From assembly GCA_028693445.1 (NCBI GenBank), contig JAQUVI010000004.1, forward strand, positions 1 to 64,000: 64,000 nucleotides of DNA, in the 5' to 3' direction. The notes beneath the pieces were generated by a model. That model was not told the DNA's origin. It saw only the letters and a list, made by a program, of their open reading frames with translations, and made no database searches. This document shows positions 26,066-57,968 of this stretch, one piece after another. Made by a program: the position numbers and the translations under genes. The first letter of the stretch is position 1; every line of letters begins with the position of its first letter. This DNA comes from Candidatus Absconditabacteria bacterium. Its GTDB lineage: Bacteria > Patescibacteriota > Gracilibacteria > Absconditabacterales > Absconditicoccaceae.

Positions 26066-27315
26066 ATGGAAAAAAAGTTGATGTTCTTCTTGGTCTTCAA
26101 TGGGGAGACGAGGGTAAAGGAAAAATTATTGATGTACTCACACCAAATTATAACATTGTAGCTAGATTTCAAGGTGGACCAAATGCTGGTCATACATTGG
26201 AATTCAATGATATTAAGGTTGTTTTGCATCAAGTTCCTTCTGGTATTTTTCATTCAAATATTATCAATATAATTGGTAATGGAGTCGTTTTTGATCCTGT
26301 TAAATTTCGGGATGAAATATCGATGTTGGAAAAATACATTCCAATTAAAGAGCTAAGTGAAAGAATTATTATCTCAAATGAAGCTCATTTAATTTTACCT
26401 AGCCATAGATGGTTAGATCATGTTTATGAAGAAAAAAAAGGTAAGAGTAAAATTGGAAGTACTTTATGTGGAATTGGTTCTTGCTATACCGATAAATCTT
26501 CTAGATCTGGTATAAGAATTGGTGAGATATTCGAACAAGATTTTGAAAAAAAATTTGAAAAACTCTTTTTGGAACACAAAACTATTATTGATGATAGAAA
26601 TATTTTGTTTTTTAAAATCAATCAGACATGGAAAAAAGATATACAAAAATTCCATGAAAGTATCGAATTTCTAAAAAAAATTTCTATTATTGATACTCCC
26701 ACCTTTCTGAATAATGAAAGAAAAAATGGTAAAAAAATTCTTGCCGAAGGGGCACAGGGTACTTCACTTGATATAAACTTTGGTGATTATCCTTTTGTGA
26801 CAAGCTCTACTACAACAAGTGCTGGGGTTTGTTCTGGTCTTGGTATTCCACCTCAAGCAATTGGCGAGGTATTTGGTCTTGTGAAAGCCTATTCTACAAG
26901 AGTTGGCTCAGGACCATTCCCTACAGAGCAAGAAAATGAAATTGGTGAAAAACTTCGCCAAAAAGGTAATGAATATGGGGCAACCACTGGACGTCCTAGA
27001 CGTTGTGGATGGATGGACTTAGTCCAGGTTAAACGCGCTGTTATGCTTAATGGCGTAACTAAACTAATTCTTTCCAAAGCAGATGTTTTGTCTAATTTTG
27101 GGACTATATGTATTTGTATAAAATACGATAATAACGAAAACCCTGTTTATAGAAAATTTTCTAGTTGGGATCTTATTATAGATAATAATACTTTTTCAAA
27201 AAAAATTCTTTATTATATGGATTTTATACAACAAGAAGTAAATGTTCCTATATCATATCTTTCTATTGGTCCAAATCGTATTGATATAATAGATATAGAA
27301 AATTTTAATTTATAA
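26066..27315 (+). CDS. purA: Adenylosuccinate synthetase PurA (UGA-free; start out of frame)
   Basis: About 416 residues. Converts IMP and aspartate to adenylosuccinate using GTP, on the way to AMP. Motifs: LLGLQWGDEGKGK (P-loop), RFQGGPNAGHTLEF, EGAQGTSLDINFGDYPFVTS, TRVGSGPFPTE, TTGRPRRCGW and SIGPNRIDI. The only plausible ATG (26066) is one base out of frame with the rest: the A7 tract after it would need to be A8. About 36 glycines are all GGN and none TGA, in sharp contrast to neighbours, pointing to recent acquisition from a standard-code organism. It is transcribed alone; no purB is in the window. Confidence 0.9.
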
Positions 27316-27470: not shown

Positions 27471-30065
27471 ATGTCAGAATCGACTCCTCTACTTTGAACT
27501 ATTGTTCAGCACCCTATAGAAACAGAAATTAGTGAATCATATATAAATTATGCGATGTCAGTTATATCATCTCGTGCATTACCAGACACAAGAGACTGAT
27601 TCAAACCAGTACTTAGAAGGATTTTGTACGCGATGTACCAAATGAATAATTTTTATAATCAAAAACATAAAAAATCAGCAAGAATAGTTTGAGAAGTAAT
27701 GTGAAAATATCATCCACATGGAGATAGTAGTATCTATGAAGCAATGGTTCGTATTTCACAATCATGGTCACTTAGATATCCTCTTGTTGATTGACAAGGG
27801 AATTTTTGATCTATTGATTGAGATAGTCCTGCTGCGATGAGATATACAGAAGCAAGACTTACAAAAATTGCTGAAGAAATGCTAGGTGATTTAGAACAAG
27901 ATACTGTAGATCGAAGACCAAATTTCGATTGATCTTTGCAGGAACCAATTATGCTACCTACGAAATTTCCAAATCATCTTTGTAATGGAACTATGGGTAT
28001 TGCGGTTGGTATGGCAACAAATATGGCTCCTCACAATCTAAATGAAGTTTTGGATGCTTGTTTGTTACTTTTGGAAAAAGAAGGTAAAGATACTGAAATA
28101 ACTGATGAAAATTGACAAAAAATAACTTCAAAATATAGCGTTTCTATTGATGATATTATGGAGATTATCAAAGGGCCAGATTTTCCTACATGATGAGTAA
28201 TTTTTGATTCTAATAATATCAAAGAAGTTTACAAAAGAGGTAAATGATGAATTGTTGTAAGAGGGAAAACTCATGTAGAAACTGATAAACATGGTTTTTC
28301 TATACTTGTTATAGATGAGATTCCTTATTTGGTAAATAAATCAACACTTGTAACAAGAATTGCTGAATTAGTAGTTGATAAAAAAATTGATGGAGTAACT
28401 GATATTAGAGATGAATCTAGTAAAAATATAATCAGAATTGCTATTTATTTAAGATCTGGTATAGATCCAGATCAGATTTTGGTGCAATTATTTAAATATA
28501 CAGAGCTACAAAATAATTTTAATGTGAATAATGTTACTTTGGTTGAACAAGCAAAACAGCCAAGACTTTTGAATATAAAAGATTTATTGATGGAATATGT
28601 TGTCTTTAGAAGACAAGTTGTTTATCGTAGATCAATATTTCAATTAAATAAAGCTAAAGATAGACTACATATTTTGGAATGATTACAAAAAGCTATTAAT
28701 ATTATTGACGATGTAATTGATACAATTAAAAAATCACAAACTAAACCTGAAGCAAAAGAAAATTTAATAGAAAAATTCTGATTTTCTGAAATGCAAGCAG
28801 AATATATTTTGATGATGAGATTGCAATCATTGGTTGGTCTTGAAATTCAAAAAATTATTGAAGAAATTGAAGAAAAAAAGAAACTTATTGAATATCTTGA
28901 AGGAATTATTGGTGATCCTATCAAACTTGATGGAGTTGTTAGAGAAGAAATGGAATATATGAAATCAAAATATGGAGATGAAAGAAAAACAAAGCTTTCA
29001 CAAGATCTTAGTGTTTATAATATTGCTTCAAGTCTGAAAGCATTCAAGGATGCAGCTGATAAAATAAAAGAAGATGTAATTGTATGGCTTGGTAATGATT
29101 ATTCACTAAGAGTACTTTATCAATCAAGAATTCAAGTAATACCTGATGAAACGCTTGATTTAATTTACACCCACAACCAAGATAAATTAATTATAATTAC
29201 TGATATTTGAGAATTAGTAGTCCAAAGATTAAAAGAATTTGGAAGTTTTGTAATGAAACAAAATGCCGTTAATCTCAAAGAACATTTTGGTTTGAAATGA
29301 AAAATTGTTTTTGCAAAAACATTGCATTTTGAATTTAATTATCTTGTGTTTTTAACAAACAAAAACAGTATTAAAAAAACCAAAAAAGAACTCGTTCTTT
29401 CATTCAAAAAATTTCCTACAACTATTATGAAACTTGAAGATAAAGAAAAAATACTAAATGTTTCTCCTGTAAATGATTGAGACCACCTTGGTATAATCAC
29501 TAAACAATGACGAGGATTGTTTTTCAAGTCAGATGATATTAGACCTATGGGGAAAACAGCTGGTTGAGTAAAAGCTATAGAACTTCAAGAATGAGATGAG
29601 GTAGCAAATATGTTTATTCACAAAGATGAACCGTTTGTTTTAGTCCATTCTGATAAAAATTGAAAATTACTTAGTCTTGAGGATCTTAAAATACGAAAGA
29701 GAGCAAGAAAGTGACAAGTAATTATGACAGGAAATGAAAAATTGGAAGGTTGAATTAGTATTGTAGAATGAGCTATTAGAATCAGATTTGAAGATTGATC
29801 TTTGATTACATTACATTCAAATAATATTCGTCTTGATGAACCAGAAACACCATTACACAAAATGGTAGATAAACATATTAATATTATTTATAGACCATGG
29901 GAAGAAAACGAAGAAAATCTTAAATATAAAGAAGAAAGAAAAAAAGCAGCTAAAGAGTGAGAAAAATTAGAACAATGATTGTTTGATGACTCTAATAAAG
30001 AAGATGATTCAGATAAAAAAGAATCTACTGAAAATAATATAGATGAAAAAGAAACTACTGAATAA
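27471..30065 (+). CDS. gyrA: DNA gyrase subunit A
   Basis: 864 residues. Breakage-rejoining subunit of the type II topoisomerase that supercoils DNA. N-terminal [37 protein letters not shown] and the catalytic Tyr in [14 protein letters not shown] coiled-coil tower follows (about 430-500), then the C-terminal beta-pinwheel repeats ([14 protein letters not shown]). A canonical GyrA box is not evident and the tail is acidic ([14 protein letters not shown]), so ParC-like activity cannot be excluded. Dozens of TGA glycines. TTGACG lies at 27438. It starts a run of co-directional genes. Confidence 0.93.
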
Positions 30066-52368: not shown

Positions 52369-53385
52369 ATGAAAAAACAACAGAAAATTGTTTTGTGATG
52401 GATAGGCGTTATTGTTTTTTTTATAGCTTTGGGGAGTTGATTTGGGGGGATTAGGTTTGAGCAGAAAGCGAAACCGGAAATCTTTTCCCCAAGTGAAAAT
52501 CGCTCTCAAATCCAAAATATTACATGAAAAATATTTGTCTCCCCTACCGATATAGGGTTTATTTTGGATATTTTTGGCAAAGCAAAAACAAATCTTTATC
52601 TACAAACTTATGAATTTACGGAAAAAAGAATTAGAGCTTTGTTTAAACAACTCTTGGAAAATAATGTAAATATTAAGCTTATTATGGAAGACAAAAAATA
52701 CCAACAATTCAAAAATACCTTCAAAGAAATTCAAAGTTTATTTAGTTGATATGATAATTTCCAAATAAAATCAGATAAACAAATGAAAACGACGTATGTT
52801 CATGCCAAATTTGCATTGATAGATAGTGGATTTTTGATTCAAACAGCAAATCTGACGCATTCAACATTTGCAACAAATCGTGAATATTTTTTCTACAGTC
52901 ATCATAGTTGAGTTTTCCAAAGTTTGGCTACTATTTTTGATAAGGATTGGAAAGGTGAGACTATTCGTTATAGCGATATTCATCCAAATCTTTTGGTATG
53001 TCCTGTAAATTGTAGAGCTGTTTTGGAAAATTTGATAGAGTCGGCGAAAAGTTCAATTATCATAGAAAACCAATATATCGAAGATCCTCGCCTCCTTTTA
53101 CTTTTGGGAGATAAGATATCAACTCTTTGAACCTGAAATATCCATATCCAGCTCCCCGACACCGACAAAAACAAACTTCTCCAACAACAATTATGAAAAC
53201 CTATTGTAACATTAATCAAAAAACCTTATATCCATGCAAAAATGATGCTAATAGATAATCATATTCTTTATCTTTGAAGTATAAATTTTTCTACAAATAG
53301 TATGGATAACAATAGAGAAATTTGAATTTTATTGACTGATTCAGAGATTATAAAACAATTTTTAGCATATTTTTATCAAAAATAA
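52369..53385 (+). CDS. Phospholipase D-family protein with two HKD motifs
   Basis: 338 residues. An N-terminal membrane anchor (KIVLGWIGVIVFFIALGSGF) precedes two PLD halves: YVHAKFALIDSGFLIQTANL with STFATNREYFF, and YIHAKMMLIDNHILYLGSIN with SMDNNREIGI. Both show H-x-K and the following Asp. Such proteins act on phospholipids or nucleic acids outside the cytoplasmic face; the true substrate is unknown. Confidence 0.88.
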
Positions 53386-53389
53386 TTGT

Positions 53390-53417
53390 TTGACTTTTTT
53401 CTTTTGTTCTTTATAGT
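53390..53417 (+). promoter_or_regulatory. Promoter of the 128-residue gene
   Basis: TTGACT, 16-base spacer, TATAGT; the leader is A/C-rich. Confidence 0.65.
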
Positions 53418-53457: not shown

Positions 53458-53844
53458 ATGAAAAAAACTATCTTTGTTTTTTTGAGTATTATATGCTTTA
53501 CAAAAGCATATGCTCAAAAACAGGATTTACTACAAACTTTAATAACCAATATCCAATCGAAAGACATAGTAGTGGTTGGATGCTTGGTTAATGAGGAGTA
53601 TCCTGAAGAATCAATGCCATTTGTAAAGAAAATGGCTGTAGAAACTAGTAATCTTTTTGCTTTCATTATGTCAGATGCTTATTTAGATGAAAGTAAAATT
53701 ATTTGTAGAGATGTAATTATCTTTGATCGAACGACAAAACAATTCAAAGAATTTGTTTTAAATGGAAATCAAAAAAATCTCGATGAATTATTAAAAAAAC
53801 AACAAAATAAGGAGTTCCAATTTATCTGTGGAATTACTAATTGA
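53458..53844 (+). CDS. Exported orphan protein that appears to end at TGA (128 residues)
   Basis: A signal peptide (KKTIFVFLSIICFTKAYA) is followed by a small domain (DIVVVGCLVNEEYPEES, FAFIMSDAYLDE, IIFDRTTKQFKEFVL). Glycines are GGA only. The frame meets TGA at 53842-53844, six bases before a strong GC-rich terminator stem. Read with code 25 it would continue 20 codons through the terminator hairpin to TAA at 53905. I place the end at the TGA on structural grounds. It looks like a standard-code gene; the fold and function are unrecognised. Confidence 0.65.
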   Translation: MKKTIFVFLSIICFTKAYAQKQDLLQTLITNIQSKDIVVVGCLVNEEYPEESMPFVKKMAVETSNLFAFIMSDAYLDESKIICRDVIIFDRTTKQFKEFVLNGNQKNLDELLKKQQNKEFQFICGITN

Positions 53845-53849
53845 TACCT

Positions 53850-53880
53850 AGCCCTGCCTTTTTTAAAGGCAGGGCTTTCT
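53850..53880 (+). terminator. GC-rich terminator after the 128-residue gene
   Basis: AGCCCTGCCTTT / AAAGGCAGGGCT hairpin with a T-rich tail. It would be translated if TGA at 53842 were read as Gly. Confidence 0.85.
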
Positions 53881-53941
53881 TCTTGCAAAAATTATTGGAA
53901 TTTTTAATGTTATTGGGTTATTTTTAATATTGAAAAATCTT

Positions 53942-57647: not shown

Positions 57648-57968
57648 TTAGTTATATAAAGCTTCTTTTATAAATTTAATAAGATGTTCTTGTGCTAGTT
57701 TTTTATTTTGTTCTTGGTATCTTGTCTCTTGGTTATGCAGAAATAATGTTGTATCATGATGGCAAAGTTCCTTGTGATGAGTATGATGTATCAACCTTTC
57801 TCTTTCTTCGTCATCAAAATATTTAGAATCTGCAATATCTCGGAAGAATTGAACCTTGGTTTCTCTTTTATTTACGTTTTGTCCTCCATGACCTGATGAT
57901 TTTGAAGTCTCATACTTGATTTCATGATGATCTGAAAGTAATTGATGGATACGTTCGTCTAATTGCAT
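57648..57968 (-). CDS. arfB: Peptidyl-tRNA hydrolase ArfB (GGQ domain)
   Basis: 106 residues. Codon-independent release factor homologue (ICT1/YaeJ family). GGQ motif in SSGHGGQNVNKRETKVQFF; the C-terminal helix is charged rather than strongly basic. It rescues ribosomes stalled without a stop codon. Glycines are GGN in this short gene. A pairing with smpB gives the cell two rescue routes. Confidence 0.85.
   Translation of the reverse strand: MQLDERIHQLLSDHHEIKYETSKSSGHGGQNVNKRETKVQFFRDIADSKYFDDEERERLIHHTHHKELCHHDTTLFLHNQETRYQEQNKKLAQEHLIKFIKEALYN

Follow-up and report, generated by a model that had tools for sequence, protein, structure and literature searches.

Features of the locus

The window, which is the whole stretch of 64,000 nucleotides that was analysed, contains a gene for a small secreted protein whose frame reaches TGA directly ahead of a strong intrinsic terminator. 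The genome (G000) was compared with two congeners, RAAC1_SR1 (G002) and a second congener (G001). The features at the locus are as follows.

52369-53385, + strand: PLD-like (phospholipase D superfamily) gene directly upstream of the target gene; Pfam PLDc_2, E 3e-32
53390-53417, + strand: promoter-like element TTGACT-16-TATAGT, from a consensus scan; a similar element lies at the same place in both congeners
53458-53841, + strand: target gene for a small secreted protein of 128 aa; signal peptide ..KAYAQ, no known family
53842-53844, + strand: TGA, Gly under code 25, at the ancestral stop position; TAA in both congeners
53842-53907, + strand: predicted read-through extension GYLALPFLKAGLSSCKNYWNF, which closes with TAA at 53905-53907
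53850-53876, + strand: intrinsic terminator hairpin of 12 bp inside the read-through frame, with a T-rich tail at 53877-53884

The ATG at 53458 opens a frame of 128 codons, followed in frame by the TGA. The sequence-only reading had described a gene that meets TGA just before a GC-rich stem; the position and the strong terminator stand, but the gap between TGA and hairpin is five bases (53845-53849) and not six. The hairpin has a folding energy near -21 kcal/mol, with a z of about -4.9 relative to shuffled sequences, carries the T-rich tail TTCTTCTT, and is the strongest terminator within the window. Under code 25 the frame continues past 53841 as TGA plus 20 sense codons, a 21-residue extension, and closes at a TAA beyond the hairpin, which agrees with the earlier prediction that with TGA as Gly the frame would run through the hairpin for 20 more codons. 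The codon-usage score of this tail is -5.3, that is, non-coding.

Each of the eight other terminators in the window that are tied to a gene end lies 3-27 bases past the stop codon of its gene, as expected from the earlier remark that the other genes stop before their hairpins. The whole assembly (1.17 Mb) contains 265 terminator-like sites, and a gene end could be assigned to 115 of them: 103 lie after the stop, 11 overlap it, and one, that of the target, lies wholly before it. The limits used in this count and in that for the window differ slightly, with the same picture from both. Gene calling relied on codon usage in a simple form; because code 25 has only TAA and TAG as stops, the 862 called genes necessarily end in one of these two.

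The target protein had no significant Pfam, NCBIfam or PHROGs family, and a sequence search against solved structures gave nothing significant. A structure model built from the three homologous sequences reached a mean pLDDT of 65 and had no PDB match with E <0.3. Cys42, Cys83 and Cys124 are conserved in the target protein and in both congeneric homologues. The synonymous codon usage of the target is at the 12th percentile, inside the native range. Internal TGA is absent, for which the chance expectation is about 14% with three Gly codons; three of the 21 genes in G000 having three Gly codons contain no TGA, and the absence taken alone is not striking. The PLD-like gene upstream encodes Gly with TGA and is thus a native-style gene. 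The number of promoter-like sites found in the region by the consensus scan is close to chance level.

Homologues in two congeners

Homologues of the target were identified in RAAC1_SR1 and G001, with a protein identity of 30-35% across the three species; this is low, since orthologues shared by this genome and RAAC1_SR1 have a median identity of 81%. The C-terminal ends are ..FICGITN-TGA in the target, ..LACGITD-TAA in RAAC1_SR1 and ..MACLD-TAA in G001. Both homologues thus have a true stop at the homologous point, although the alignment of the last residues rests on CGIT[ND] with one homologue and on less with the other. In both congeners the TAA precedes the homologue's own terminator. A PLD-domain gene precedes the homologue on the same strand in all three species, the promoter-like element and leader are similar at all three loci, and the block is syntenic between this genome and RAAC1_SR1. 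The shared PLD-linked locus and the TAA ends in the congeners indicate that the target is an old resident, whose TGA at 53842 marks the ancestral end of the protein.

Recent transfer, one of the origins proposed by the sequence-only reading, predicts that the gene is absent from the locus in close relatives. This origin is not supported, since the gene is present in both congeners, at the same locus and with the same PLD-type neighbour in three species at 30-35% identity. A TAA at the same site within the clade had been named as evidence against the whole proposal; it was found, and it removes recent transfer but strengthens the lost stop.

Among 353 genomes of the class, homologues were identified in the three congeners and no others; two further weak matches were not homologues on inspection. 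In plasmids, viral contigs and two genome-contig scans RAAC1_SR1 was the sole match, with none outside the genus. Ahead of the stop site the three homologues contain 3, 5 and 6 Gly codons, a small number for any single gene, and none of the 14 is TGA.

In addition, 608 orthologue pairs of this genome and RAAC1_SR1 were compared, and an overhang was recorded where the RAAC1_SR1 partner ends at the last aligned residue. Such overhangs were present in 75 proteins of this genome and began with TGA in three of the 75. Only the target has a TGA-started extension of at least 8 residues. With three in 75, the idea that C-terminal extensions commonly arise by stop loss at TGA is rejected. A second partial candidate, C1:153997-155451, was set aside, as its difference is TAA/CAA and not TGA.

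Decoding and ribosome rescue

TGA accounts for 9,543 of the 19,824 Gly-type codons (48%) in called genes, and at Gly positions aligned with RAAC1_SR1 it is mixed with GGN. A search with PF00472 identified RF1 and a small GGQ protein as the only RF-1-domain proteins; RF2 was not found in this search of the genome. The genome has two features of genetic code 25, namely frequent sense TGA at Gly positions and RF1 present with RF2 absent. A tRNA with anticodon UCA is located at C8:40122-40195; it is predicted to be charged with Gly and to read TGA as Gly in this lineage. No known factor of this cell should terminate at UGA.

A tmRNA is located at C11:423198-423565, and its tag frame, read off the sequence as ANKTLKRAFALVPAYAA, is intact. 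SmpB is the partner of tmRNA, and together they rescue ribosomes on non-stop messages. Its gene is also present, inside the window.

1636-2100, + strand: SmpB, gene call, with a PF01668 match at C7:1645-2082

The small GGQ protein (57648-57968, - strand; RF-1 domain, 106 aa) is of the ArfB type and is without the C-terminal basic tail of its RAAC1_SR1 relative. This tail senses the empty mRNA channel in ArfB-type proteins, so the small GGQ protein may be inactive in rescue.

The best explanation, to which we give a probability of about 0.7, is that the target is a resident secreted-protein gene that has lost its stop through the genetic code, with TGA where its homologues have TAA. Since there is no RF2 and UGA is probably read as Gly by tRNA(UCA), ribosomes should not stop at 53842 and would pass into the terminator region. 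Transcription that ends at the hairpin would place the mRNA end at about 53880-53885, short of the TAA at 53905 by some 20 bases, and would give a non-stop message. Its product would be the 128 aa plus about 13 residues, tagged by tmRNA/SmpB. Where RNA polymerase continues beyond the hairpin, the product would be a protein of 149 aa whose tail derives from the terminator sequence. Ribosomes that enter the hairpin could by themselves make termination less efficient. The earlier suggestion of a mis-terminated gene with a C-terminally extended product is thus the expected outcome, given the homologous TAA in the congeners and the lack of RF2. How TGA 53842 is decoded, how well the terminator works, whether the product is tagged and what this does to its function are all points that we infer. 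The TGA may have arisen directly from TAA in this lineage, or it may be a stop kept from an old standard-code donor.

TGA-free genes in the genus

The second of these histories was considered together with a class of TGA-free genes, defined as genes that have 12 or more Gly codons, none of them TGA. This genome contains 28 such genes against 0.02 expected, and RAAC1_SR1 contains 39 against 0.92 expected. Ten of the 28 sit on contigs C5, C9 and C10, where no called gene having 8 or more Gly codons contains TGA; the three contigs resemble contaminating sequence of a standard-code organism. The remaining TGA-free genes lie on long contigs, and the orthologue, where identified, is mostly TGA-free too. 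In diverged TGA-free orthologue pairs both genomes have GGN at every one of 271 aligned Gly positions, whereas in native pairs RAAC1_SR1 has TGA at 9-32% of the positions with GGN in this genome. Thus, simple drift does not fit.

The families PorP/SprF, SprB/CHU_C and SiaC are typical of Bacteroidota, and type IX secretion is named in Pfam. A cluster of PorP_SprF, SprB/CHU_C and PD40 genes is syntenic between this genome (C11:47665-52359) and RAAC1_SR1 (1155574-1160401) and is TGA-free in both. PorP_SprF was not found in the other 56 of the 58 relatives searched, and SiaC is likewise confined to this genus among these relatives. The natural reading of the TGA-free class is acquisition from standard-code donors in the ancestor of the genus.

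Several genes of the genus, besides the target, reach TGA as an apparent end. In RAAC1_SR1 a terminator scan identified three frames with a TGA inside the terminator stem or immediately ahead of it, and two genes end at a TGA in an ATGA overlap, which is typical of standard-code operons.

RAAC1_SR1 204089-204478: TGA-reaching frame; 6 Gly codons, no internal TGA
RAAC1_SR1 603431-603826: SiaC (PF09345), TGA-reaching frame; 5 Gly codons, no internal TGA
RAAC1_SR1 320114-320869: TGA-reaching frame; 15 Gly codons, no internal TGA
This genome, C11:49002-49910: PorP_SprF, ending at TGA in an ATGA overlap; 34 GGN codons before the TGA
RAAC1_SR1 887131-887991: PP2C gene, ending at TGA in an ATGA overlap

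If TGA were used at the genome average, the chance of finding none in the three RAAC1_SR1 frames and the target together would be about 1e-5, a figure from hand arithmetic made post hoc. The RAAC1_SR1 orthologue of PorP_SprF has TAG four codons earlier than the TGA of C11:49002-49910. SiaC of this genome (C1:103108-103545) has TAA inside the terminator loop, and SiaC of RAAC1_SR1 has its TGA before a similar hairpin, so the 3' end has shifted between the species.

The target resembles this TGA-free, partly Bacteroidota-like class, and an older standard-code origin of the target is plausible but unproven. The donor would probably have been one of the Bacteroidota, with TGA as the stop; two congeners would have switched to TAA and the target would not. 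We regard this history as possible but hold it only tentatively. It differs from the best explanation in history alone, as present-day decoding is identical. Several observations are consistent with it. First, none of the 14 Gly codons of the three homologues is TGA. Secondly, the TGA-free class is rich in Bacteroidota-type families (PorP_SprF, SprB, CHU_C; SiaC), which are confined to this genus among the 58 relatives. Third, further TGA-free genes terminate in TGA, in ATGA overlaps or at terminators, and the TAG gained just upstream in RAAC1_SR1 PorP is as repair would look. However, TAA is the simpler ancestral state, as both other congeners have it, and no homologue outside the genus was found in plasmids, viral contigs, genome-contig scans or the 353 class genomes. 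The native codon usage of the target (12th percentile) and its preceding promoter-like element, of the sigma-70 and not the Bacteroidota type, also argue against a foreign stop.

An unlikely reading of the class is that its genes are "bilingual": selection would exclude TGA-Gly, some would end in TGA, and all could still be read in the standard code. A reason might be that the genes are exchanged with partner bacteria that use the standard code, or function inside them. In that case the target would be one such gene, its TGA a tolerated standard-code stop.

Other explanations and known systems

The true codon at 53842 could also be TAA, with the TGA an error of sequencing or assembly, a strain polymorphism or another minor variant. 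The TGA is one base from TAA and is known from one assembly, for which 6% bin contamination is reported and in which contigs C5, C9 and C10 look foreign. Against this, the frame is open over 128 codons with no other sign of error and the complete RAAC1_SR1 genome has comparable TGA-ended genes, and we give an error little credence. It is similarly improbable that TGA 53842 still functions as a stop, either because tRNA(UCA) decodes it poorly at this site or through a release activity not known at present: the terminator is placed as though TGA ended the gene, a layout common to several TGA-free genes of the genus, but the genome is without RF2 and its called genes read TGA as Gly about 9,500 times.

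The products of arfA of E. coli and brfA of B. subtilis are made from non-stop mRNA. In brfA the terminator lies inside the frame before the stop, and the product was shown to be SsrA-tagged (PMC6881298). The target has the same layout, with its intrinsic terminator in frame before the stop and a non-stop message expected. It differs in that its stop was lost through TGA being a sense codon, that it encodes a secreted protein and not a rescue factor, and that no regulation is indicated. The brfA-like layout would fit a regulated non-stop gene, whose in-frame terminator is selected so that, as with ArfA and BrfA, the product builds up only under an overload of trans-translation, but this is very improbable, as the congeners keep TAA ahead of the terminator, the protein has a signal peptide and is unlike any rescue factor family, and no RF2 is available for recruitment by a cytoplasmic factor of the ArfA/BrfA type.

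Reassignment of UGA has been argued to make foreign genes misread, by read-through, in code-25 cells, as a general speculation on incoming DNA (PMC8080830). The lost stop of the target is similar in that a standard-code stop TGA would be read as Gly, but here the gene is a resident at a conserved locus. Code-11-compatible phages exist for Gracilibacteria and Absconditabacteria (PMC10746230). These share with our genes TGA-free frames, possibly TGA-ended, in hosts with TGA as Gly, whereas the genes described here are chromosomal and conserved between species. Also, the backup stop of the target is 20 codons away, behind the terminator, and that of the phages is in close proximity (PMC10746230). 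No report of chromosomal genes like the target or its TGA-ended relatives was found in the open-licence papers that were searched. The target and the TGA-ended genes of the genus are concrete cases in which a stop has turned into Gly and the ribosome should enter the terminator. They allow tests of the fate of such messages, of stop-codon repair in a recoded genome and of the reason for TGA avoidance. A further point from these genes is that automatic annotation under code 25 can give incorrect C-termini.

Expression level and TGA use

High expression was considered as a cause of the TGA-free genes. Genes of the ribosomal-protein operon in this genome use TGA for 169 of 351 Gly codons (48%), which equals the genome average, and the explanation is rejected for this genome. 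In RAAC1_SR1 the same operon has 82 of 395 (21%), and high expression may contribute there. Use of TGA in the ribosomal operon thus differs strongly between the congeners, 21% against 48%. EF-Tu has TGA at 0 of 37 Gly codons in RAAC1_SR1 (28730-29908) and at 7 of 37 in this genome. PurA (adenylosuccinate synthetase; 26066-27315, + strand) has TGA at 0 of 25 Gly codons in its called part and at 0 of 41 in RAAC1_SR1. A run of seven A separates the apparent ATG at 26066 from its N-terminal part, which lies in a different frame; the frame break is either a sequencing error or a real frameshift.
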